In this document: positions 1 to 12,008 of the stretch, piece by piece
Numbering within the stretch: the stretch's first letter is position 1
Layout of the letters: every line of letters begins with the position of its first letter
Source of the DNA: Flavobacteriaceae bacterium
GTDB lineage: Bacteria; Bacteroidota; Bacteroidia; Flavobacteriales; Flavobacteriaceae
Length of the DNA stretch: 12,056 bases
NCBI GenBank assembly: GCA_016763715.1
Contig: JAESTG010000108.1
Span: 1 to 12,056, forward strand
Direction: 5' to 3'
Program-made: the position numbers and the translations under genes
Notes under the pieces: generated by a model
Told to the model about the DNA's origin: nothing
The model's database searches: none
What the model saw: only the letters and a program-made list of their open reading frames with translations

Positions 1-375
1 CAATCATTCTTTGTGGCATCGGTTCTGCCGCTGAACCCAAACGAATGAAACATCCCTTTTCACTCATCCCATATTTTTGAGATGATATGGTTTTTCTGGA
101 CCGCTGGCCATAATGATTTTTAGAATGTTCTTGCCGTCCCTTTCCTCACTCACAATATCAAACAAACCAAGTGCTGAAGGACGGATATTATTTTTGAGTC
201 TATCCTTGATTTTCAATTGGTCGCCATCAGCATCTGTCAAACCGTAAGTGTTTCCTTCCTTATCAATACCTATATATAGAATACCACCTTCACGGTAGTT
301 CAGAAATGCGATAACCTCTTTTTCAAGTCCATCGGTAAGTTCTCGTTTATATTCTATACGGTTTGTTTCAGTCAT
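1..375 (-). pseudogene. AlbA_2 (Schlafen-type) domain protein, 5' part, frameshifted
   Basis: Starts at an ATG (373-375) and stops after 103 codons at 64-66. The N-terminus carries NRIEYKREL and then FLNYREGGILYIGIDKEG, the core of the AlbA_2 fold found in Schlafen-like proteins and many bacterial putative transcription or defence factors. The frame breaks at the A5 run (plus-strand T5, 74-78). With one extra A the reading continues as YGMSEKGCFIRLGSAAEP and runs open to the window edge, which is the expected end of the AlbA_2 domain. The annotated 103-residue product is therefore only a piece of a longer gene. Forty-nine bases separate it from the preceding gene, so it could share the operon or have its own promoter; no clear promoter is seen. 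The AlbA_2 call is firm, while its role (regulator, or nuclease as in Schlafens) cannot be told from this fragment. Confidence 0.8.
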
Positions 376-424: not shown

Positions 425-926
425 TTATGCTACATTTTTCTCCAATATCAAATTCAAAAATGATGTCGGTTGTAAAAAATAGTTTGGATTCTCTTCTAAT
501 TTTTCTTTAATCAAAATAAGACCACCATTGGTATATGATTCCATAGTTTTCAGCATCAATTTTACAGCTTGATCTTCTTCAAGTTCTCCTTTCTCAAGAT
601 CAATCAAGTTGATATCTGTTTTTGCCAAAAGTGCGATAAACATATTTTCTTGTATGTTAGTAAAATCCTTGCGTGTAGAAATCGTTGTTTTACTGCCCCA
701 GTGCTGAATGTGATGACTAAAGTCCGTTTTCTTTTCAACATCGGGTATTGGTGTTAATTCATTGTTGTAAAGACCCAGAAAGAAAGCATAGGTATATAGT
801 TCATAGTTAGTACTGAAGTGTTTACCAAGATTAATTTTCTTTTCACCTTCTGCACCAAACTTTTGAGAAAGTGAGGCAAACAAGTCTTTATGAACCTCAC
901 TATATTTTGGAATTTTAGTTTTCCAT
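425..926 (-). CDS. Unrecognised ~150-166 aa protein of the phosphorothioation cluster, start disrupted
   Basis: The clear open frame starts at a TTG (881-883; 152 residues) and ends with TAA at 425. It stays open further upstream without an ATG. An ATG in another frame (924-926) lies one base after the TAA of the SMC-like gene, but reads only three codons. Removing one A from the A4 run right after it (919-922) joins that ATG to the open frame, giving an N-terminus METKIPKYSEVHKDLFASLS and 166 residues. That start fits the tight packing of the operon better than the TTG. The protein looks soluble and mostly helical, with a segment NYELYTYAFFLGLYNNEL and a charged middle. The pattern faintly recalls small Dnd-associated/DndE-like proteins (dnd_assoc_4 type), but I would not assign it. 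Position suggests an accessory to the restriction module. Confidence 0.7.
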
Positions 927-927
927 T

Positions 928-2485
928 TTATAATGTGATTACTTGTGTGTTAATTGTCTTTAAATTGTTTGAATCAAATGGTCTTTCTAGTTTTACCCAA
1001 AATGCTTTATCTCTTCTAACACTTTCAAATTCTTTTTTAATTGAAAGTGCTTTTGTGACTTTATCTGAATGAAGAAAATCTTTAATAAGTAATATTTTTT
1101 GGCTATCTATTTCAAAAATCAAATTTAAGAACTGTGCTGTTTTGTTTTCACCAAATGATGATGTTGGTGCATCAAAAATCATAGGGAAGTTTTCCTCTTT
1201 TATCTCTGATGCTAGTTCTGAAATAGCAAATAGAATAGATATGTGCATTGAGGTTAACAATGATTGATTTGGCTTATAAAATGTTCTGCCATTTTCTTGC
1301 AATTCAACTTCAACTATTGTTCGATTAACTTTATTTCGCCTTGTAAATACGATTGTACCAGTAAAAGCATCAATGTTGATTCTTTTGAAAAAGTTATTTG
1401 ATTTTGTTTGCAGCTTCTCAATAAATTCATCAAACTTTATTTCTTTTGTATCGATAAATATAGTTTCAATATCTCGCAATATATTTCTTGTTTTAATCAA
1501 GAATGAATTTGCCGAATTAATATCGATTCTATCTTTCTCCTCCTTTTTTAAAACTAAATCGGTTTCAAGTTTTTTAAATTTTGCTGTATAATTGACTTCG
1601 TCTTGATTGCGGATTTTTAGGTCATTTTGCCAAGCATTATAATTTTTTAGGACATCTATTAATTTTTCCTCTGCAATACTTGAATTACCCAAAATTCGCT
1701 CTCTCTCCGTTTTTTCATTTTCTAATTGTTCATTGAGTTCTTCAATATCTTTTTTTCTATCATTATTAAATTCAAAAAGTTCTTTGATTCTGGTTCTTAT
1801 TAATCGAAGGTTTTTCAAATTGTCTTCGTGACTTATACTCAAATTTTCAAGTCTATTGGTATAATCTAGTTTGAAAAACGGTTCATCTTTTTCCTCTTCA
1901 TTTTCTTCGACAACTTGAGTTTCTAAATAGGCTTTTGGTCTTTTCATCATAAATACATACGCATCTGAACCCTTCTCTGCTTCACGATTACATACTTTGC
2001 ATATTTCATCGTGCAACATTTCTTCCATATGTGACTTTGATGGCACACCATCAGGAAGAGGAACCGCATTATTGAGTAATTCTGCTTTTGCTTTTTTCTC
2101 ACCTAGTTTAATGCCCTTCTGTTTATCAAATTCAGATTGTAGTTCTCTTCGTTTTTTGCTATGTGCAGACACCTTTTCAGCAAATTCTTTGTGGAATGAT
2201 TCGAAATTGACTAGAATCCAATTTTCATCAAATAGGGACGTTGTGTAGTTCTCGTCAATACCTTCATTAAGAGAAGAAATTTTCCCCTCAATTTCTTTAA
2301 TTCTTTTATTTAATGTTTCTAAGGCATATGCATTATTAACGTGACTTTCTGCTAATTGCAAATTTCCCTCAATTTTCCTAATTTCCTCTTCAGTTGAGTT
2401 TAAATGAACAAGATATTTAGACTTCTCGTTTTGTATAAGAAGAATTTCTCCTTCAAGTTTTTTATAAAGAACCTCATTTTTTTTT
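928..2485 (-). CDS. SMC/Rad50/DndD-like ATPase, C-terminal part (continues 2474-3079 after a frameshift)
   Basis: This frame supplies the second half of a DndD/Rad50-like ATPase. Joined to the upstream part by dropping one A of the A9 tract, the gene runs 928-3079 and encodes 716 residues, a normal length for DndD-like proteins. A long coiled-coil-rich stretch surrounds a CKVC motif at merged residues 360-363, almost exactly the midpoint, as expected for a Rad50-type zinc hook. Near the C-terminus, FPMIFDAPTSSFG holds the Walker B Asp (merged D636), preceded by a degenerate signature region, SLLTSMHIS. The frame technically extends back to an ATG at 2560-2562, but those residues lie in the out-of-frame reading of the upstream part and are probably not real. 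TAA at 928-930 lies one base before the likely ATG of the next gene. Position matches the last gene of an sspFGH-like restriction module. Family certain; letter uncertain. Confidence 0.88.
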
Positions 2486-3079
2486 ATCAAGCTTTGAAGA
2501 ATCTTCCACCGCTTTTTCAGCTTTTTCTCGAAGGAAAATACCCTTCTCTGAATATTTATCATAATGTTTTGCCTCAGAAAATAAATTAATGAGGTTTACT
2601 AGAGCACTATCACTTTTAAAAATATTTAAATCAGCCTCACCTTTAAACATAGAATATTTTCGAATTTGGAAAGGGAATACTCGGTCAAGAAGCACCGCCC
2701 CATCAACTTGATTACGCTCACCTGAACTATTTTCTTCAATACCCTCAATCATAAAACTTGACGTAGAACACTCATTCGCCTTTTCCTTTTTAGCAAGAAA
2801 GGACTTGGTTATGATACTTTTCTGGCCATACTGTTCCACAGTCATTGACACTCTTACTCTAAAGCTATCTCCAATTTGTGTTTCATCTAGTTTCTTGGCA
2901 GAAACAAGCATTTCAAGTCCTCGGTTTTCACCATTGAAAAGCCATTCAACAGCTTCAAAGAATTTCGTTTTTCCTTCTCCATTTTCACCAAGAATAATAT
3001 TTAACCCTTCCGATAATATAAAAGTGTTGGTGTCGTAATAACAGAGATAGTTGTCTATCTGTATTTTCTTGATAATCAT
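2474..3079 (-). CDS. SMC/Rad50/DndD-like ATPase, N-terminal part with Walker A
   Basis: Starts with ATG (3077-3079), overlapping the TGA of the 76-residue gene in an ATGA junction, which implies translational coupling. Residues 1-50 form the typical SMC/RecF/DndD head: IDNYLCYYD, then Walker A GENGEGKT at 31-38, followed by FFEAVEWLF. YSMFKGEADLNIF near residues 142-154 resembles the Q-loop region of DndD-like ATPases. The frame stops at TGA right after an A9 tract (2477-2485), giving 201 residues that end in the first coiled coil. Alone it lacks the Walker B and the second half of the head, so it could not hydrolyse ATP. With A8 the reading passes through LDKKNEVLYKK into the downstream frame. 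Either a sequencing indel, a phase-variable tract or a true inactivating mutation. Confidence 0.9.
   Translation of the reverse strand: MIIKKIQIDNYLCYYDTNTFILSEGLNIILGENGEGKTKFFEAVEWLFNGENRGLEMLVSAKKLDETQIGDSFRVRVSMTVEQYGQKSIITKSFLAKKEKANECSTSSFMIEGIEENSSGERNQVDGAVLLDRVFPFQIRKYSMFKGEADLNIFKSDSALVNLINLFSEAKHYDKYSEKGIFLREKAEKAVEDSSKLDKKK
2477..2485 (-). repeat. A9 homopolymer causing the frameshift in the SMC-like gene
   Basis: On the coding strand the run reads GAT, nine A, TGA. Nine A give a stop at once; eight A join both halves of the ATPase into one 716-residue frame. Runs of this length are prone to polymerase slippage, transcriptional slippage and base-calling error, so the observed length may not be the only one in the cell population. 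Confidence 0.85.
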
Positions 3080-3306
3080 AATGCCTCATTTAAAAATTGT
3101 GTGACTTGGTTGCGTAAAACAGAATCTGTAACAGGTGAAGTGCCATCTAATCCTTCCACTATCAGTGCAATTGCCCTAATTATTGGTTTATCTGAATAGA
3201 GAGCTTCTCCTATTGTGGAAGGCAAATCAGTTTTATCAAATTCATACTTAGATTCAAGTAAATGGTGAGTTAAAAAACTTTTAAGTATATTATCTTTTCT
3301 TGCCAT
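3076..3306 (-). CDS. Small phosphorothioation-system-associated protein (76 aa)
   Basis: ATG at 3304-3306, 11 bases after the helicase stop. TGA at 3076-3078 overlaps the ATG of the SMC-like ATPase. It encodes 76 residues, soluble, predicted mainly helical, with an acidic/hydrophobic middle (EFDKTDLPSTIGEAL, then DKPIIRAIALIVEGL) and no cysteines or catalytic motif. It matches my memory of the family named 'DNA modification system-associated small protein', found between the helicase and SMC-like genes of such clusters. By order it would be the middle gene of an sspFGH-like module. Coupling on its downstream side suggests it is made in step with the SMC-like protein and may act as a bridging or adaptor subunit; that role is inferred, not shown. 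Confidence 0.85.
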   Translation of the reverse strand: MARKDNILKSFLTHHLLESKYEFDKTDLPSTIGEALYSDKPIIRAIALIVEGLDGTSPVTDSVLRNQVTQFLNEAL

Positions 3307-3317
3307 AAGTATGAATT

Positions 3318-5522
3318 TTATAAATCGTTTAAGTTTAAACTATAGTAGTCCAAAATGTTTTTTAAGGTTTGGTAGGTGTCAGATTTATTCATTGCTAGAT
3401 TAGCGAAATCGACAACTCTCTCCAATTCTTTCTTAACTAGCCCTTTTTCCATCTCAAAAGTATTTTCTTCAGAACCTACTTCTGGCACTACTACTAAATC
3501 GTGAATAGTTGCATGGATTTTATCATCGTGCAAACGCAATACTCTGCCTCTTCTTTGAATGAACTGCCGAGGATTTCCGGTACTAGCACAAAATATTGCT
3601 AACTCTGAACGTGGTACGTCTACACCTTCATCTAAACACTTCATTGATGTCAATACGTGAATATTTCCAGCTTCAAAGTTCTTCAAGATTTCTTCACGAT
3701 TGACGGAATTTGAAGTAAATTGTTTTACCATAACAGAGTCATCCGTTTGGCTCACAGCTTTAGTATATTCGTTTATCAACCTATTTTCATCTTCCGTTTC
3801 AACGCTAAAATCTATATTATCAAAATTTGATTCTATTCCCTCTGGGACATATACTAAAGTATATTTTAGATCCTTACGCTTATCATACTCATCCCTTAGT
3901 ATATTTCGAAAGGCTTCTAATTTATTTGCTGCTTTGTGAATAATGCGTTTTCTTTTAAGAAGCAACATCTCTATTTCTGGACTGCTTCTAAATGCACCTG
4001 TATCTTTGTCAAATAAACCCATTCTTAATAATTGTAGAGATAACTCCCTATAATTCTTCATTTCCTGAACTGTAAGTTTTACGACGTGCGGGTAATAAGT
4101 GTATTTGCACAACCATCCAATTTTTAAAGCTTCCTCCATAGAATACGAAACTATATAAGGTGGCTCATCATCAAAAAATTCTTGAATGGCGTTGTTTCCT
4201 AGTTCATCAAATTTTCTGTGTGGTGTAGCGGACAATCCAATTCTCTTCTCCAAATGTATATTTGGTAATATTCTCAAAATACCTTGTGAACCCAGATTAT
4301 GGGTTTCATCTGCAATTAAAATAGTGTCATTTGGAAGTTGTGAGAAATAGCTTTGAAATTTGGGTCTTGGCAAAGAAGCGTATGTTACAATAACAATAAA
4401 AGATGTATCGATAAGCTTTGAAGCCGTATTGAAGAATGCAAGATTACTATCCCAATTTTCCTTAGAACTTACGGCAATAATATTTTTGAAATTAAACTTG
4501 GCGCATACTTTTTTCCATTGCTCGACTAATGCAGTTGTTGGAACTGTAATAATTGCTCTGTAAATGTTTGTTTTATGATATTCGTTAAGCAAGCAGTTTA
4601 GGGAAGTAATTGTTTTCCCTGTTCCTGTTGCCATTGCAAACATTCCCTTATAATTATTGACAACCCACTCGTTATAAGCGTTAATTTGATATTCCCTAGG
4701 ACCTTCTTTATATGGAAATCTAGGCGATCTTCGAATGAGATCAATGTCATTGAAAAGTTTTGTAATGGTTTTTTTGAGATTGGGATTTAAAATTAAACTC
4801 TGTTTCTTTTTTAAGAGTTGTTCTTCTTGAACAAGTAATTCATTTATATCCTTTTTGCCAAACCTATCTTTTAGAACAACTTCTATTTGATCTACAGGAA
4901 TATATTCTACATCTTCATCTTTCTCAGTAAAATAATCATCCATTAATTTGAGCTGTTTTTTTATTAGTTTGTTTGATCGCCCATTTTCCCAGCTTAGAAA
5001 GGCTTCAAGTTCCTCTAAATTTTCTGATAGTCCATAGAGTGTAAAATTACAAGAAGCTTTATAGCCAACAGAATTTAGTCCATCACTGAAAACTCCTGAT
5101 TTATAATGAGCAATTCCTTTTCCGTTTTTGGGTTTGATGACTTTAATTTCAATTCGCTTTTCAGCAATTAGATAAGCTAAACATTCAAAAAAGTGGGTGT
5201 CGTATTCATCTAATACTTTACCCAACGAAACAACATCCATTAAATCAAAAACCTTGTTGTTAGAATCTCCATTGGCTTTTATAACCGCTTCTTTATCTTT
5301 TGAAGAGAGCAAATGATTGATAACCATTTTCATCTTACCCCCTTTGCTAATAAAGGTGGCAAAGCCAACCGAAAGCAAATTGATAGCGGAAGAACTGAAG
5401 TAGCCTAATAATAAGTTGAACTCATTACTATTAGCTAAGCCATCTAAATAGAATTGTAGAGGTTCATTTTCAGAATCTGTTTTGTAATCTCTATCCAGTG
5501 ACCAATCACAATCTTTAAGCAT
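3318..5522 (-). CDS. SF2 helicase with N-terminal PLD-like domain (phosphorothioation restriction enzyme)
   Basis: Encodes 734 residues; ATG at 5520-5522 lies four bases after the TAA of the desulfurase gene. The N-terminal third looks like a phospholipase-D-family nuclease half: FNLLLGYFSSSAINLL at 35-50, then H139-Y-K141, D147 and N159 in IAHYKSGVFSDG and ASCNFT. An SF2 helicase core follows: Walker A TGTGKT (299-304, K303), DETH (405-408), SATP (431-434), motif V CLDEGVDVP (629-637) and motif VI QFIQRRGR (653-660). All helicase motifs are present, so the motor should be active. This architecture matches the 'DNA phosphorothioation system restriction enzyme' family (dnd_restrict_1), and by position it would be the first gene of an sspFGH-like module. 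It probably moves along and damages DNA that lacks the sulfur mark. A single PLD motif implies a dimer if it is a nuclease. Confidence 0.93.
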   Translation of the reverse strand: MLKDCDWSLDRDYKTDSENEPLQFYLDGLANSNEFNLLLGYFSSSAINLLSVGFATFISKGGKMKMVINHLLSSKDKEAVIKANGDSNNKVFDLMDVVSLGKVLDEYDTHFFECLAYLIAEKRIEIKVIKPKNGKGIAHYKSGVFSDGLNSVGYKASCNFTLYGLSENLEELEAFLSWENGRSNKLIKKQLKLMDDYFTEKDEDVEYIPVDQIEVVLKDRFGKKDINELLVQEEQLLKKKQSLILNPNLKKTITKLFNDIDLIRRSPRFPYKEGPREYQINAYNEWVVNNYKGMFAMATGTGKTITSLNCLLNEYHKTNIYRAIITVPTTALVEQWKKVCAKFNFKNIIAVSSKENWDSNLAFFNTASKLIDTSFIVIVTYASLPRPKFQSYFSQLPNDTILIADETHNLGSQGILRILPNIHLEKRIGLSATPHRKFDELGNNAIQEFFDDEPPYIVSYSMEEALKIGWLCKYTYYPHVVKLTVQEMKNYRELSLQLLRMGLFDKDTGAFRSSPEIEMLLLKRKRIIHKAANKLEAFRNILRDEYDKRKDLKYTLVYVPEGIESNFDNIDFSVETEDENRLINEYTKAVSQTDDSVMVKQFTSNSVNREEILKNFEAGNIHVLTSMKCLDEGVDVPRSELAIFCASTGNPRQFIQRRGRVLRLHDDKIHATIHDLVVVPEVGSEENTFEMEKGLVKKELERVVDFANLAMNKSDTYQTLKNILDYYSLNLNDL

Positions 5523-5526
5523 ATTT

Positions 5527-6672
5527 TTAATTTGGTTCAGTTAGTTCTTTTATCTTTTCAACAACTATTGCTACATCTTCCATTGTGTTGTATTTGCCCA
5601 GTGAAAAACGCAATGAAGCGAATGCATCATCATTACTAAGCCCCATTGATTTTAGTACGTGAGAAGGTTCAAAAATAGCTGACGTGCAAGCGGAACCATT
5701 TGAAACTGCTATGTTTCTCATTCGACCAATTAGTACATTAGCATCTTGACCTTGGAAACAAATATTTGTTGTGTTATAAATCCTTTTTGCTAATTCACCG
5801 TTTAGTGATGTATTCTGTAATTTTAGTAATTCAGACTCCAATTTATTTCTTAATTCAAGAATGATTATCTCATTTTCTTTCATTTCTTGACCAGCAACTT
5901 CACAAGCTTTCGCTAAAGCAATAATTCCAGGGACATTTAATGTGCCACTTCTCAAGCCTATTTCGTGACCACCTCCGTGAATTTGTGGTGTAAGATTCAC
6001 TTTATTTCCACTTCGTCTTAGGTATAGTGCGCCAATACCTTTTGGGGCATACATTTTATGGCCGCTAAAACAAAGTAAATCAACTCCTAATTCATCTACA
6101 TCAATATCAATTTTACCAAGGGCTTGCGTGGCATCTGTCATAAATAGAGCGCCTTTTTTGTGAGCCAATGAGGCGATTTTCTTAATGGGCTGAATAATTC
6201 CTGTCTCATTATTAACATACATAACCGAAACAAGTATTGTATCTGGTCGAATAGATTGCTCTAAAACGTCCAAACAAACCAATCCATTTCCTTTAACGGG
6301 CAGAAAAGTTACTTCAAAACCTTTTTTTTCTAAATCCTTGCAAGTGTCTAAAACTGCTTTATGTTCGGTGGAAACCGTGATGATGTGTTTTCCTTTGCCC
6401 ATATAACTTTCTGCTATTCCTTTAAGCGCAATGTTTATTGCCTCTGTAGCTCCACTAGTAAAGATAATTTCCTTGGATTCTGAATTGATGAAATAAGCAA
6501 TTTGCTCTCGGGCTTGTTTTACGCTTTCATTGATGGTTTGACCAAAATTATGTGTGCTACTTGAGTTGCCGAAATTATCCTTTAAAAAAGGTAACATTGC
6601 ATCGAGCACCCTCGGGTCGATAGGTGTGGTAGAGTTGTAGTCAAGGTATGATGTTTTTTTAAAGCTTTCCAT
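5527..6672 (-). CDS. sspA: Cysteine desulfurase (SspA/IscS/DndA-like)
   Basis: A complete PLP enzyme of the NifS/IscS class, 381 residues, that takes sulfur from L-cysteine to form a protein persulfide and alanine. Visible features: LDYNSTTP at the N-terminus, SGATEAIN (73-80), H104 in STEHKAV, NETG (155-158), D180 in DATQALGK, the PLP lysine K206 in SGHK, GGGHEIGLRSGT (233-244) and the catalytic cysteine C329 in SNGSACTS. ATG at 6670-6672; TAA four bases before the helicase ATG. Its place directly between the PP-loop sulfurtransferase and the restriction genes makes it the dedicated sulfur donor for DNA phosphorothioation (SspA role), although a housekeeping IscS has the same chemistry. The gene looks intact. 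The 155 bases upstream hold a small ORF and could contain an internal promoter, none of which is recognisable. Confidence 0.96.
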   Translation of the reverse strand: MESFKKTSYLDYNSTTPIDPRVLDAMLPFLKDNFGNSSSTHNFGQTINESVKQAREQIAYFINSESKEIIFTSGATEAINIALKGIAESYMGKGKHIITVSTEHKAVLDTCKDLEKKGFEVTFLPVKGNGLVCLDVLEQSIRPDTILVSVMYVNNETGIIQPIKKIASLAHKKGALFMTDATQALGKIDIDVDELGVDLLCFSGHKMYAPKGIGALYLRRSGNKVNLTPQIHGGGHEIGLRSGTLNVPGIIALAKACEVAGQEMKENEIIILELRNKLESELLKLQNTSLNGELAKRIYNTTNICFQGQDANVLIGRMRNIAVSNGSACTSAIFEPSHVLKSMGLSNDDAFASLRFSLGKYNTMEDVAIVVEKIKELTEPN

Positions 6673-6699
6673 TAAAAATTATTATTAATGCTCATCTAT

Positions 6700-6816
6700 C
6701 TAATTATCTAGTTCCGCAAGAACTAATTTGATAAGGGTCGGGGTTAAATCTATCTTACCACTGTCTACTATATCAAGTAAGGTATTAACCGTCCAAATTT
6801 CAACATTAAATTTCAT
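6700..6816 (-). pseudogene. 38-codon ORF resembling the start of a DUF262 protein (possible remnant)
   Basis: In the only sizeable gap of the block (6673-6827) an ATG (6814-6816), 11 bases after the stop of the PP-loop gene, opens 38 codons ending in TAG. The first 25 residues, including IWTVNTLLDIVDSGKIDLTP, look like the N-terminus of DUF262 proteins, where this segment is followed by Pro-x-Tyr-Gln-Arg. Here the frame instead ends in TLIKLVLAELDN. In another frame the bases just after the proline codon read Pro-Tyr-Gln before stopping soon after. DUF262 is the N-terminal domain of SspE, the usual nuclease partner next to sspD, so this could be a stump of a lost sspE-like gene. It might instead be a real small protein. 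The similarity was judged by eye only. Confidence 0.45.
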
Positions 6817-6827
6817 AATGAATTATT

Positions 6828-7928
6828 TTAAACAAAACAAGAAGCGCACCCTTCACCCTCATCATCCAATATATCTACTAGGTATGGTGATTTTGTTTTG
6901 GATTTTCTTTCCATTCGTTTAATATACTCCACTTTGATTTTTTCCATCCTTTCAGGTTGAATCAATTCTTCCAAACTCTCACCTTGTGCCCAAGTATATC
7001 CGTCTTTCTCATATTCCATTGCCTTTAGGTACAATTCTTTATGTTGCTCATACAACCAAACCCATTCAATTTTTTGTTGAAAAAAACAGAAAAAACAACC
7101 TGAACGGCTTCTTGCATATTCACCCTTTTTACCATTTACCTCAAATTCTATTTTGTTGTAATATGCAGGTACTCCAACGCCGCTTTCTTCTAATATTCTG
7201 AAAATATCTGCTTTAATTGATACTTCATCATTTTCCAAAAGTGGAAATGCATCCTCTGTGGCTAATGGGTATTCTGTTGTTTTCAAAAAGTCGAAAACCA
7301 AATGATTGAAAGCTTTTACATTTGAATCTAGTAAAATATTCAGCTTTTGGTCAAGGGTAAAACTAGGATTTACTTTTCGAGAAATGGTTTGAAATGTTTT
7401 CTCTTGATTTTGACCGAAATCTATATTTTTAGACATTGTTAGTAGTTGCTCCATATTTTGGTTAGAAAGCATCTTAGTTACTACGTCCTTACTCCAGATA
7501 TTCTTGCGAAAAGGAAATATGGATTGAATGTTCTTTTTAGTAGAAATGTAACCTTCTCTTTCTTCATCACCCCTAATGCCTACATAAGAAACCACTGGGT
7601 CGGTCCCGACATAATTCTCGAAAGGGTCCAACTTTAATTTTTTTGTACACCAACGAGCATTAGAAGAAGGTAAAAATCCACCATACATTTGCAAAAAATG
7701 GTCAAATGGATCTTCTGAACTGTTTTCTGCACCTTGTAAAAGATTAATTTTTATTCCAAGGTAAACTTCTAAGTTTTTAATTAATTGGTATGTTTCTTCT
7801 AATTCTTTTCCTGTATCGCAAGAGTAAAATTCCAAGTCGATGGATGGATATTTAGTTTTTATATAAATAGCCAAAGCAGCACTATCCTTTCCTCCTGATA
7901 TACCTAATACGTGTCTTATTTTGCTCAT
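6828..7928 (-). CDS. sspD: PP-loop ATP pyrophosphatase / PAPS-reductase-family DNA sulfurtransferase (SspD/DndC-like)
   Basis: Encodes 366 residues. SGGKDS at 11-16 is the PP-loop that adenylates its target; CDTGKELEET (37-46), ARWCTKKLK (91-99) and VGIRGDEER (116-124) are further marks of the PAPS reductase/DndC family. Cysteines C94, C278 and C281 (SRSGCFFC) are placed to hold an iron-sulfur cluster as in DndC. A second pair, C361 and C364, sits in the last six residues (GCASCFV). An insert of about 100 residues (roughly 145-245) separates the PP-loop core from the cysteine region. ATG at 7926-7928 overlaps the upstream TGA as ATGA, so it is coupled to the ATPase gene. Expected role: receive sulfur from the cysteine desulfurase and place it in the DNA backbone. 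The gene is intact. Confidence 0.93.
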   Translation of the reverse strand: MSKIRHVLGISGGKDSAALAIYIKTKYPSIDLEFYSCDTGKELEETYQLIKNLEVYLGIKINLLQGAENSSEDPFDHFLQMYGGFLPSSNARWCTKKLKLDPFENYVGTDPVVSYVGIRGDEEREGYISTKKNIQSIFPFRKNIWSKDVVTKMLSNQNMEQLLTMSKNIDFGQNQEKTFQTISRKVNPSFTLDQKLNILLDSNVKAFNHLVFDFLKTTEYPLATEDAFPLLENDEVSIKADIFRILEESGVGVPAYYNKIEFEVNGKKGEYARSRSGCFFCFFQQKIEWVWLYEQHKELYLKAMEYEKDGYTWAQGESLEELIQPERMEKIKVEYIKRMERKSKTKSPYLVDILDDEGEGCASCFV

Positions 7929-9379
7929 TGTAATAATTCTTTTAACAGATTCAATACCGCTGCTATATTCGAAGTATTATCTTTGCCCAGCTTATTTCTT
8001 AATTCGTTCTTCAATTGCTCAATTTCTTTACTCTTATTTTTGGGCATCCTAACTACCTTGTGGTCAATCTTGCTGAAGAATGAGTCAATCTTAACCCCAA
8101 TTACGTCTTCCTTAGTTTCATCGATATCAGTTTTGGAAATTTTCGTCAAGCTATCTAAATCCAAAATCATTGACTTAAATTTCTCATAAAGTAAAACTTC
8201 ATCTTCATCAGAAAACCTTTCAAGTGTTTTTTCTATTATTGCTTGTCCTATGGAATTTAACCAAGCCTTTCTATCATCCAATGGTGAGTCAAGTCGTTGA
8301 ATAAAAGTTTTTTGATTATTCAAAAGCATATGTTTTTTCAATCCTAAATACCGCTTTTGTAGATATTCCTTATATTCTTGAAACTCGACCTTTTCACCAA
8401 CAAATTCGTTGATGAGGAATTCTTCAAATCTATTGAGAAGATCATCATAAGATGTTCTTAACTCCCTAACCGCATCTTGAAGATTTACTGCGTAATTTTG
8501 TAATTTAGATTTATCCTTTTGCAAAGTACCTAGCGTAATGCCCAACGCGCTTGGAAAGGCTTCAAAGAAAGTTTTCTCCGGGTCTTTACTAGTAGCGATA
8601 GCTTTACGGATTTTTATCGCTGAAGAAGATAATCTTTCAGTATTTTTACTGTACTCTGGTAATTGTTTATAAAAAACAATAAACGGTTTTATAGTTTCAA
8701 TAAAAGAGTTGTTGTCAAACTTTTGCTGTGTTGCAATATTTAAGAAAGTACGATAACTATTAAAAATATCCAACTTAACACCTTCAATATCAAAGGATTT
8801 TACGGAATACTTGTCTGGATATTTGGCAATTAATTCTAAATTCTCTTCGGATAGATTTGGTATATAGCTATCATCGTTAAAAATGGCGAAATCATCTCGT
8901 TTTAAGAATAAGAAGGTAGGAATCCAAAAATCTATAAATCCTTGTTTTAGCTTAAAAGGTCTTTTACCTAGCATATCCGCTAATTCCGAAATCTTGAGTT
9001 GTTCAGATTTGGCACTTTCTAAGAAATCCTCCGAAGCCCTCCATAATTTATTGAAAGTAGAATTCGAGTCAACAGAAACAACACTCATTGTGTTTTCTCT
9101 AATGGGCGAAATTCCGTTTTCCTTTAATAATGATAAGTAGATAGTCTTTTCAGGTGGGAATTTAGAATCTTCGAAGCCTAAATTATCCTCATCCCAACTA
9201 TTAGCTAATGCCTTAAAATAATTTCTTTTGGCTGTGTGAATAGATGATGAAATTTTATGCTTATTAACTAATTCGTTTTTAAATCGAGGCGTTGCGGCAT
9301 AAACTAAGCTACAAACTTGAGAAAGCAATTTATTAAAGTCTTTCTTATCGGATATCGTTTTTTCTTCTCCATTAAAATA
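7925..9379 (-). CDS. sspC: SspC-like ATPase, C-terminal part after an in-frame TGA
   Basis: This stretch is in the same frame as 9380-11143 and follows directly after its TGA. The first codons read YFNGEEKTISDKKDFNKLL, then CSLVYAATPRFKNELVNKHK, which resembles the inner helical region of large defence ATPases (an NGE...LN.LLS...Y..TP.F.NEL pattern), where a Trp usually precedes the YFNGE-like segment. A gene caller would start at TTG 9326-9328 (467 residues), but 17 in-frame coding-like codons lie upstream of it, so a separate start there is unlikely. The whole gene would be 1072 residues (7925-11143). The C-terminus is helical and charged, with no catalytic motif I recognise. TGA at 7925-7927 overlaps the ATG of the PP-loop gene. 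Together with the N-part it is the single large ATPase expected between the DUF4007 and PP-loop genes. Confidence 0.82.
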   Translation of the reverse strand, partial: YFNGEEKTISDKKDFNKLLSQVCSLVYAATPRFKNELVNKHKISSSIHTAKRNYFKALANSWDEDNLGFEDSKFPPEKTIYLSLLKENGISPIRENTMSVVSVDSNSTFNKLWRASEDFLESAKSEQLKISELADMLGKRPFKLKQGFIDFWIPTFLFLKRDDFAIFNDDSYIPNLSEENLELIAKYPDKYSVKSFDIEGVKLDIFNSYRTFLNIATQQKFDNNSFIETIKPFIVFYKQLPEYSKNTERLSSSAIKIRKAIATSKDPEKTFFEAFPSALGITLGTLQKDKSKLQNYAVNLQDAVRELRTSYDDLLNRFEEFLINEFVGEKVEFQEYKEYLQKRYLGLKKHMLLNNQKTFIQRLDSPLDDRKAWLNSIGQAIIEKTLERFSDEDEVLLYEKFKSMILDLDSLTKISKTDIDETKEDVIGVKIDSFFSKIDHKVVRMPKNKSKEIEQLKNELRNKLGKDNTSNIAAVLNLLKELLQ

Positions 9380-9382
9380 TCA
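9380..9382 (-). other. In-frame TGA replacing a probable Trp codon in the SspC-like gene
   Basis: The codon sits between SGSKEVK and YFNGEEKTIS at position 588 of a 1072-codon frame that is otherwise open. A TGG-to-TGA change would explain it. TGA serves as a true stop at 7925 and 3076, both in ATGA junctions, so a reassigned code is unlikely. Confidence 0.8.
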
Positions 9383-11143
9383 CTTAACTTCCTTGCTTCC
9401 CGAATAAATACTATCCGTTATATAATGATTTAGTAATCTAATTTGTGATTCTACAATATTTTCAAGCTCTCTCTTAGCGACCTTATCATCTTGGTTTTCT
9501 TCAAGAACTTTCTGAATTTTTTCAATCTCAAATAATAAGTTTTTTATTTCAGCAGAATTATTGAAAAAACAATAAATGATAGCTTCTTCTTGAAGTTTAG
9601 ATTTATTTTTAATGTTACTTTCTTTCAATTTGCTGTTAAAAACGAGATTTACAAAACCGTCAACTTCTCCTACGGGTATTTCTTGAATAGGGTAGTCTGA
9701 AATAACAAATTCAAAATATCTTGGTGTTCCAGTAGCAAAAGAATATTGTTTTGCAAAAACGGGACTAAAGAGGATATGCTTATTCAAGAGCGTTGTTATG
9801 TCAACCACTTCTGAAATTTTATTTCCCGCTTCTATCAACGCAGTTTGAATATCCAGATCCGTCCCTTCAAACAAAATAAACCGCTTCGAATGCGAACGGT
9901 ATCGAATAATATTCTTTATTTCGAGGTTTTTAATTATGACTTTTGAATCAGAAACTCCACAAGAAATTTTCAAATAATCGATTAAAAAATCCAAATCCAA
10001 AATTGAACCGCTAGCTGAAAAAATATTTAAAAGTCCAATTGTTTTAACAGTCTTAATATAATTATTTATATCTGAATCAAATGCCCTTTCCACTTCTTCA
10101 ATTGCAGAACGGATGGAACTCCAAGCGGAAAAATCCGGATTATACCTTGATGTTAAAAATGAGTAAAAATTAAAATTCAAATAATCATAAACATTTGACA
10201 AATTGTAAAATGGATCTTCCTTCTTGTTGAATTTCGCTAAACCAGTATGGTCTGAAGATTCAAGAAAGGAAAACAATGACCTTTCATTTTGACCGTATCT
10301 CTGTAAAGAAAGCGTTAGAATATTCGCTGAAAGAATATCCAACGGATATAACTTTGAAGCAATATCTTTCAAAAAGTCTTTATTGAAGTTGAAGGCTTTT
10401 GTTTCGGTTGTCAACATTAAGCATTTCTCAATAGCCTTAATTGATGAGTTAATTTCAAATTTTTCAGCAAGATATTCTGATGCTAAAAACAAAAGCTGTT
10501 CAACAGGTTCATTAAACGTAATTTCACGAAAACGACCTTTAATTTTAGTCCATTCCTGTTGTTGTGTTTTACTTAATGAATAAGCATAGGACTCTAAACT
10601 TTGGTGTACCGTTGTAATCAGTACAATGTTGTGCTTTGGATTATTACAAAATTCTGCAAGTTGCTGAACAAAATATAATTCCTTTTCAGGGTTATGTTTG
10701 CTAGCATATTCTAAAAACTTTCCAAACTCGTCAACTAAAATAAATAAAACTTTATTTTCCTTGTCTATAGAATGGTATCTATTAAATATTTCGGAAAGTA
10801 TATTTTCCTGTTGATTTTTGTGTGATTGAACTTCGAACGCATCTTCAAATTGTTCAATTATTGAAGTATACGAGCCAATAATTTTTACAAAATCAAACTT
10901 TGGATTAGTAATAAAATTTGGATCAAAATAGCATTTAGTTCCTTTGACACTCTGTTCAAATGCTAGTAGAAAAGAAGACTTACCTGTGCCATAAGTCCCC
11001 ACCACATTAAAAGAACGAATTCCTTTTTTAAAGTCGTTAACTATTTGGCTGACAACCTGTTTAGCATTAGGTGTTGGGATATAATTAAAATCCCTATCAG
11101 TATCCCTGATAATATTAACCGATGTTGTGAAATTATTTGCCAT
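9380..11143 (-). CDS. sspC: SspC-like P-loop ATPase, N-terminal part
   Basis: Encodes 587 residues before the TGA. Walker A is GTYGTGKS (49-56, K55); Walker B is LFILVDEF with D138-E139; a sensor-like IVLITTVHQS lies at 173-182, and arginines in KGRFREI (202-208) could be the finger. This is a STAND/AAA-like DNA-system ATPase of the sort placed between DUF4007 and PAPS-reductase genes, hence SspC. ATG at 11141-11143 overlaps the last codons of the DUF4007 gene by 11 bases, implying translational coupling. Residues 300-587 are helical with a winged-helix-like stretch around 390-430. The stop falls between domains, and the same frame continues for another 484 codons, so the protein as read is truncated to about 55 percent of its length. 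It might keep ATPase activity but lacks its C-terminal half. Confidence 0.88.
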   Translation of the reverse strand: MANNFTTSVNIIRDTDRDFNYIPTPNAKQVVSQIVNDFKKGIRSFNVVGTYGTGKSSFLLAFEQSVKGTKCYFDPNFITNPKFDFVKIIGSYTSIIEQFEDAFEVQSHKNQQENILSEIFNRYHSIDKENKVLFILVDEFGKFLEYASKHNPEKELYFVQQLAEFCNNPKHNIVLITTVHQSLESYAYSLSKTQQQEWTKIKGRFREITFNEPVEQLLFLASEYLAEKFEINSSIKAIEKCLMLTTETKAFNFNKDFLKDIASKLYPLDILSANILTLSLQRYGQNERSLFSFLESSDHTGLAKFNKKEDPFYNLSNVYDYLNFNFYSFLTSRYNPDFSAWSSIRSAIEEVERAFDSDINNYIKTVKTIGLLNIFSASGSILDLDFLIDYLKISCGVSDSKVIIKNLEIKNIIRYRSHSKRFILFEGTDLDIQTALIEAGNKISEVVDITTLLNKHILFSPVFAKQYSFATGTPRYFEFVISDYPIQEIPVGEVDGFVNLVFNSKLKESNIKNKSKLQEEAIIYCFFNNSAEIKNLLFEIEKIQKVLEENQDDKVAKRELENIVESQIRLLNHYITDSIYSGSKEVK

Positions 11144-12008
11144 AATATTTGTCTAATACTGTGAATGCTTCTACTTTATTCTTGAATTGCAATTCCTTAA
11201 TTCCTGCTTGGTCAGTAAAAGTAATTTCCTCAAACTCACTAACTATTTCGGAAATTTTATTCATCAACCCTAAACGATTCAATGCAAAAATTGAACCTGG
11301 ACTATTGATATTGAATTCTAAGGAATTTAAGCCAATTGAATTGCCATAATTTAAGTTGTCAAGAATTGTATATAATACTATAAATTCAGAAAGATTATCT
11401 CTTTCGTTGTTTTCGATATAGAATTGCTCATCCTTTCCTTTTCCAGTAGTGTTTACAAGTTCTATTTCAGAGAGTATTCCTGTAAAACTATCTTCTATAT
11501 TCTTGCTCTCAGATTCATTTTTATATAAATTGGTAAAAACATTAAAGTCCTTAGCAACCGTATTTTCATTAAAATTAAAATCATTATCACTTTCACCAAT
11601 TCTTTTTAAATAATTCACATATGTTTCTTTATTAAAAAAGAGTTTTTCTTTTCTGAATTCATTGAAAATGATGCTGTAAATTGAAGCAAATCCAGTTTTT
11701 ACAAGCTGGTAATGTAAAAGCCACAAACTAGCTTCATCTTCTAAAAACGGATCATAACCAGTCTCATCGTCGAATAATCGTTTTCCGAATTCAGTTGGAA
11801 AATCCTTATTATCAACTATATTAAAAGCCTTTAACCAAAATCTAATTGAAGAAACCATATTTTTACCAACCCCTAGCTGTACTACTGCATCTTCATCATT
11901 GAATTTTCTATTCTCGATTACGTAATCATATCCTTTTTTAAGCCAAAGCTGTCTACATTGAAAAGAATCGTGCCCTGAGAATGTGTATTTTATATTTTCT
12001 AAACTCAA
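11133..12008 (-). CDS. sspB: DUF4007 protein (SspB-like component of phosphorothioation)
   Basis: Encodes 291 residues. DUF4007 marks are clear: FSGHDSFQCRQLWLKKGYDY (10-29), VQLGVGKNMVSSIRFWLKAF (43-62) and DPFLEDEASLWLLHY (86-100). DUF4007 proteins head operons with a large ATPase and a PAPS-reductase-like enzyme; in the Ssp system the corresponding protein, SspB, is reported to nick DNA so that sulfur can be inserted in one strand. No classical nuclease motif is obvious by eye. The start is TTG (12006-12008): the frame is open a little further up, but no ATG exists in any frame in the remaining 48 bases, and the conserved FSGH begins at residue 10, as expected. No SD motif is near. This appears to be the first gene of the operon, with too little upstream sequence to see a promoter. 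Confidence 0.9.
   Translation of the reverse strand: MSLENIKYTFSGHDSFQCRQLWLKKGYDYVIENRKFNDEDAVVQLGVGKNMVSSIRFWLKAFNIVDNKDFPTEFGKRLFDDETGYDPFLEDEASLWLLHYQLVKTGFASIYSIIFNEFRKEKLFFNKETYVNYLKRIGESDNDFNFNENTVAKDFNVFTNLYKNESESKNIEDSFTGILSEIELVNTTGKGKDEQFYIENNERDNLSEFIVLYTILDNLNYGNSIGLNSLEFNINSPGSIFALNRLGLMNKISEIVSEFEEITFTDQAGIKELQFKNKVEAFTVLDKYYGK

Follow-up and report, generated by a model that had tools for sequence, protein, structure and literature searches.

In published Ssp systems, SspA and SspD move sulfur, SspB nicks DNA, SspC hydrolyses ATP and one strand receives the phosphorothioate (PT) mark (PMC8092258, PMC7464106). The SspFGH restriction set includes a Walker-A protein and the FtsK/SpoIIIE-like SspH (PMC8092258). 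PbeABCD stops the replication of virus DNA and requires PT in the host DNA (PMC6459918), and the two Pbe papers disagree on DNA cutting by PbeA (PMC6459918, PMC10853773). Wang et al. (2021) found neither sspE nor sspFGH with 2,211 of 2,678 sspBCD clusters and raised the question of other restriction partners (PMC8092258), and Xiong et al. (2019) counted 320 of 553 PbeAC without dndCD and asked about their partners (PMC6459918). Here, we describe a 12,056-bp stretch of a Flavobacteriaceae contig (JAESTG010000108.1), called the window at its full length, in which an operon joins Ssp modification genes to PbeABCD. The Ssp modification machine and the PbeABCD restriction machine probably make up one PT defence system with a slot for exchangeable genes between them.

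In print, PbeABCD partners Dnd phosphorothioation. pbeA-D have been counted with dnd or ssp genes per genus with no pairing given (PMC7464106), and SspE, PbeABCD and SspFGH have been named as DndABCDE partners in a single sentence (PMC9239176). No Ssp-Pbe system was described in the passages covered of the literature that names Pbe with Ssp genes (supplements, preprints and most subscription papers were outside this scope), and the Ssp pairing is new relative to that literature. PADLOC already includes a PbeA model that fits the main Ssp-linked clade described below.

Genes of the window and its restriction half

All operon genes lie on the minus strand, and neighbors overlap by a few bases or nearly abut. 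They are given here in operon order, with the open reading frame (ORF) found in the slot and the adjoining gene.

11133..12008, minus strand: sspB; DUF4007 protein, the DNA-binding nickase of the Ssp modification module; TTG start; PADLOC SspB 3e-120; solved SspB 6juf, E 7e-20
7925..11143, minus strand: sspC; AAA+ ATPase; frame interrupted by TGA at 9382-9380; PADLOC SspC 2e-287 and 1e-210 (two parts); Walker A and B motifs
6828..7928, minus strand: sspD; PP-loop sulfur transferase of the PAPS-reductase family; PADLOC SspD 5e-92; SGGKDS motif and C-terminal CxxC
6700..6816, minus strand: ORF of 38 codons located in the accessory slot; its ~26 N-terminal residues are similar to the starts of DUF262 proteins; no Pfam match
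5527..6672, minus strand: sspA; cysteine desulfurase, named by position; PADLOC SspA 7e-164; pyridoxal phosphate lysine and SACTS loop
3318..5522, minus strand: pbeA; HKD nuclease domain and SF2 helicase; PADLOC PbeA 1112 bits; TIGR04095 1e-120 (below cut-off); HYKSGVFSDG...SCN motif at residue 139
3076..3306, minus strand: pbeB; 76-amino acid (aa) protein with the position and size of PbeB
928..3079, minus strand: pbeC; Zn-hook ABC ATPase; PADLOC PbeC 4e-16 (first part), AAA_23 2e-10; GENGEGKT and CKVC
425..883, minus strand: pbeD; predicted DndE-fold protein; listed from a TTG, with the ATG start of relatives ~21 codons earlier
64..375, minus strand: start of a Schlafen AlbA_2 gene; PF04326 1e-14; adjoins pbeD

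The preliminary description of this DNA, made from its letters, had proposed eight co-directional genes in this order, and all eight are present. It had also called the locus a phosphorothioation island with sspBCD and an embedded desulfurase, which was borne out by PADLOC profiles and by matches to solved structures. SspB, SspC and SspD are encoded together, with the stop noted above in this copy of sspC. The desulfurase scored 544 bits with the PADLOC SspA model and 540 with DndA; the SspA, DndA and IscS models score alike, and the nearest solved chains are IscS. Family matches cover seven of the eight operon genes, and pbeB was assigned by its position. The gap between sspD and sspA measures 155 bp. 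By PbeA, the nearest relatives of the window are Flavobacteriaceae, which points to a flavobacterium-like host. No tRNA was found in the window, and its counts of promoter-like sites (58 vs 49.1 +/- 6.8 in shuffles) and terminator-like sites (3 vs 5.9) were uninformative.

Judged by its sequence matches, the restriction module is PbeABCD, not SspFGH. PbeA combines an HKD domain with the SF2 helicase, and the HxK..D..SxN motif was present in 50 of 51 PbeA proteins, the sole miss being a fragment. The first part of PbeC matched PADLOC PbeC, and the sole PADLOC match of its second part was LmuB (2e-6). PbeC carries a Walker A motif and the CKVC hook, and a CxxC hook was present in all 45 PbeC proteins found. 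Between pbeA and pbeC lies the small pbeB. Its product is conserved among relatives (63-91%) and is predicted to be helical (predicted local distance difference test 77, predicted template modeling score 0.59). Profile searches of the window proteins, PADLOC included, gave no match for PbeB, and no fold search was made. The last protein, which the preliminary description regarded as extra and unrecognised, turned out to be PbeD, a regular PbeABCD member with a predicted DndE fold; it had no PADLOC match and a weak match to DNA phosphorothioation-associated protein 4 (5e-5), below the model cut-off. Among the profile matches in the window there was no dnd modification gene as a Pbe partner. SspE, a DUF262 and DUF1524 protein, was not found in the window either, which holds just the DUF262-like start of ~26 residues. 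A PbeA search of viral contigs found none. PbeA matches were seen in 14 phage records, two of which covered at least 80% of PbeA at ~28-30% identity.

Recurrence and descent of the Ssp-Pbe pairing

A scan of GTDB genomes gave 15 PbeA loci, 11 of which have the order sspB-C-D-sspA-pbeA to pbeD (pbeB was undetected in L013). The other four are L008 and L014, on short contigs, L012, which begins within sspD and is without sspA, and L015, with sspB and a truncated sspC. Bacteroidota were then searched with PbeA in 395 genomes of the phylum plus 397, 295 and 246 genomes of three families, with the seed genomes counted as positive by construction. A convincing PbeA match was found in 44 genomes: 25 were Ssp-linked, 12 had DndC over the cut-off on the same contig, and seven had no partner call (G485, G684, G759, G283, G979, G992 and G1012). 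The phylum sample alone gave 10 PbeA genomes (six Ssp, three Dnd, one without a call). Three of the 25 Ssp calls have partial evidence, with SspD alone in G811, sspB plus a truncated sspC in G013 and a contig end in G1123. Since the SspD model also matched weakly in 7 of 14 control genomes, the calls rely on SspD hits of 5e-52 or stronger that have SspB and SspC as neighbors.

In 13 of the 25 Ssp-linked genomes, sspBCD stands tail-to-tail with the pbe genes, and a DndC search of these 13 found none. A class of 13 genomes with Pbe and a desulfurase only was considered and rejected, as the SspD search placed sspBCD just outside the first ~1 kb past pbeD in all of them. In 12 of these 13 relatives sspA sits directly in front of pbeA on the strand opposite to sspBCD, and the thirteenth has sspA after pbeD (L100, L149). 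Therefore, sspA belongs with the pbe half. The preliminary suggestion that the embedded sspA marks a subtype holds in part, in that the gene travels with pbe. The pairing also occurs on two alphaproteobacterial plasmids. The Sphingomonadaceae plasmid carries a row of desulfurase, DUF4007, SspC-like, PAPS reductase, helicase, small protein, AAA ATPase and 148-aa protein genes, and on the Rhizobium plasmid the Ssp and Pbe halves face each other.

A tree of 50 PbeA proteins placed the 34 main Ssp-linked proteins, including that of the window, in one clade (99/99). Outside it fell 13 Dnd-linked PbeA and three further Ssp-linked ones, from genome G180 and the two plasmids. The tree leaves out L008 and L116 (partner unassigned), L122 (methyltransferase-linked, long branch), and L014 and L117 (incomplete). 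A single origin for all Ssp links was rejected (p-AU 0.0008), a rejection weakened by the long branches and unusual composition of the outlying rows. PbeA distances track those of SspB, SspC and SspD (r 0.83, 0.84 and 0.81; 28 loci; 0 of 999 permutations as high), partly via host phylogeny; the published correlation of DndCD with PbeAC is 0.107 (PMC6459918). We lean towards regarding Ssp-Pbe as a distinct, long-lived branch of PT defence: a Bacteroidota Pbe lineage dedicated to the Ssp mark and assembled again elsewhere, with a fixed core and a cassette-swapping slot after sspD. If true, some of the sspBCD published as "orphan" and of the pbeAC published as "solitary" would be explained in this way.

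Several further features were seen among the relatives. Two allele classes exist for pbeC together with the 3' end of pbeB (L006, L007, L008 and L090 are set apart, 62-66% to L001 vs 80-94%) and for the N-terminal part of pbeD (L009, L011 and L090, 62-66% to L001 vs 82-95%). PbeA is 83-96% beside both classes, and all four class combinations occur. The pattern resembles recombination between separate cassettes for specificity or escape. A Schlafen AlbA_2 gene follows pbeD in L001, L002 (partial, 31 residues), L003, L089 and the window. Its protein has 459 aa in L001 and L003 (15153-16532 in each), with a RecG-C-like HATPase domain and a helix-turn-helix. In the window the gene ends early, its frame changing close to a short run of A; the relatives continue to read through at this point. 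On an Aurantiacibacter plasmid (L122:8908-14595), a Pbe-like set follows a site-specific DNA-methyltransferase in place of PT genes. On a Hymenobacter plasmid (L120:7797-18363), DUF4007, SspC-like and PAPS reductase genes precede a helicase, an ATPase and a phospholipase D gene, each encoded on its own, so that a split HKD/helicase set stands next to Ssp.

Accessory slot between sspD and sspA

The slot separates sspD from sspA or, in convergent loci, the 3' ends that face each other. It is filled in 13 of 18 operonic main-clade loci and empty in five (L001, L004, L005, L011 and L092), and gap genes are present in all 13 convergent loci. The contents were as follows.

GIY-YIG-like (weak) and DndB-like: L003 and L137 by profile; L002, L089 and L090 by identity; L147 and L148 by eye
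DUF262 and SIR2: L009 by profile; L013 (DUF262 by profile, plus a third, Mrr-like gene); L142 by eye
DUF262 and protein kinase: L140
SspE-like GmrSD protein: L141
551-aa protein, AAA ATPase and third protein: L006, L010 and L106
Deoxyribosyltransferase-like: L007 and L146 by profile; L107, L109 and L147 by likeness
RNase_T exonuclease and membrane-like protein: L012 and L139; L148 by eye
HATPase and two proteins: L138 by profile; L144, L145 and L149 by likeness
HATPase and GIY-YIG: L143

The sister loci L092, L106 and L107 show three different slot states. Certain cassette genes are more similar between loci than the backbone is: the AAA slot protein is 88% between L006 and L106 vs 62% for PbeA, but its two cassette neighbors, at 64% and 53%, do not share this excess. 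The DndB-like genes lie inside Ssp loci (L003:7613-8848 and L137:9328-10581; PF14072 8e-32, PADLOC DndB 9e-25). The HATPase three-gene set adjoins sspD (L138:5753-9843; L144, L145 and L149), with two HATPase domains in L138. Another Hymenobacter plasmid (L121:11130-18236) lacks Pbe but carries genes for DUF4007, SspC-like, PAPS reductase, DUF262 and SIR2 proteins. This set is likely an SspBCD-DUF262-SIR2 system, and its occurrence without Pbe makes it likely that DUF262-SIR2 serves Ssp as an independent effector.

In the window, the 38-aa ORF aligned with 115 of 120 DUF262 proteins within their N-terminal 30 residues, with a mean score of 37.9 vs 21.1 +/- 2.7 (maximum 34.1) in 300 shuffles, and the case for a DUF262 remnant comes from this comparison with 120 N-termini. 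The best-scoring of 757 ORFs from relatives was the L013 slot DUF262 (44), closely followed by unrelated ORFs (43 and 42), and 4 of 1000 shuffles were equal. A Pfam search of the ORF gave no match, a tblastn search of plasmids gave one chance match (E 2), and a comparison with 299 Flavobacteriaceae genomes gave no match, which shows nothing by itself. The slot of the window thus likely retains the start of a DUF262 gene (~26 codons), so a DUF262-type cassette was most likely lost there.

Proposed working, rival explanations and known systems

Upon the observed gene identities, conserved motifs, recurrence, shared descent and slot, the following biochemistry is proposed. SspA would take sulfur from cysteine and transfer it to SspD; together, SspD, SspB and SspC would write it into one host DNA strand at a short, as yet putative, motif. 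PbeD, with its predicted DndE fold, and the Zn-hook ATPase PbeC would scan DNA for the sulfur mark. PbeA, a helicase that carries an HKD nuclease domain, would then block the replication of unmarked DNA or cut it; the conserved HKD motif favors cutting. The slot genes may form a second layer of defence. We infer that this Pbe reads the mark of Ssp because the partnership is inherited.

Two other accounts of the gene set were weighed. The preliminary description had assigned the restriction module to the known SspABCD-SspFGH system; the modification genes are shared, and three genes follow sspA. This assignment was rejected and is highly improbable, given that no SspF, SspG, SspH or FtsK family, and so neither an FtsK/SpoIIIE-like SspH nor a Walker-A SspF, was among the matches listed (25 of 81 in PADLOC for the first part of PbeC), that PbeA matched at 1112 bits, and that published SspFGH is a different gene set (PMC8092258). 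The island could instead house two independent defence units: Ssp together with its slot effectors, and a Pbe that works by itself or alongside a different modification. sspBCD-DUF262-SIR2 does occur without Pbe on the Hymenobacter plasmid, and Pbe is found near methyltransferases in print (PMC6459918) and beside one on a single plasmid here. However, each of the 37 partner-assigned PbeA genomes has SspD/SspB genes or DndC near pbeA on the same contig, and none of the 27 genomes tested for both carries Ssp and DndC at full strength. The clade structure, the co-divergence of PbeA with Ssp and the position of sspA before pbeA in 12 of 13 convergent loci also argue against independent units, which we consider unlikely.

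A joint Ssp-Pbe system could still be dead or dying in the window itself, with a nonsense codon in sspC, a frameshift in pbeC and an emptied slot, so that nothing works here. The single sspC frame contains the TGA, and the pbeC frame changes at an A9 run (~2485-2477), which leaves it listed as 3079-2474 and 2562-928. For each of the two genes, 17 operonic main-clade relatives include the region. In 16 of them sspC is an uninterrupted ORF of 1071-1073 aa, the exception being a 224-aa remnant in L015 (L015:3048-3722). pbeC is likewise uninterrupted, at 712-728 aa, in 16, the exception being L013, where it is split in two ORFs (L013:12419-14607). Together with the lost slot gene, the breaks in a family that is mostly intact speak for decay. 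However, the pbeC break sits on the longest homopolymer in the window, where sequencing errors fall, the remaining frames are open, and 5 of the 18 operonic relatives also have an empty slot. In another assembly, PbeA shows two differences from that of the window, and PbeD is identical from residue 2 on and has a normal start. Since most relatives are intact, sequence error and recent decay both fit the breaks; with the sequence as it stands, this copy of the locus may be inactive, and a dead locus is possible but the less probable outcome. A programmed frameshift in pbeC, raised by the broken gene of L013, was rejected on the single frame in 16 of 17 relatives, and stop-codon reassignment is unsupported, as TGA terminates sspC and pbeB themselves. 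Separately, sspD lies in two ORFs in L011 (L011:7748-8851).

The pairing of Ssp with Pbe gives a concrete answer to some share of both open counts, the 2,211 sspBCD clusters and the 320 PbeAC. It also opens to experiment the question of how a restriction machine shown to act together with Dnd phosphorothioation recognises a mark made by another writer, and the slot contents provide a list of candidate second-layer effectors. Compared with the described systems, the window has its modification module in common with SspABCD-SspE and SspABCD-SspFGH, in which sspBCD occurs with or without an adjacent sspA, but restriction there is by SspE or SspFGH and not by Pbe (PMC8092258); one relative, L141, has an SspE-like gene in its gap besides Pbe. 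The CxC ABC ATPase-DndE systems hold the same module as the window, namely an HKD and SF2 helicase, a small protein, a Zn-hook ATPase and DndE. They are described with Dnd genes or methylases, with Ssp treated as separate (PMC10853773); the hook of the window is CxxC. The DndCDEA-PbeABCD system of Haloterrigena jeotgali (PMC6459918) has PbeA, PbeB, PbeC and PbeD in the same order as the window and at similar sizes (its PbeB has 66 aa and its PbeD 152 aa), but its mark is written by Dnd, double-stranded at GATC, whereas the modification genes of the window are Ssp.

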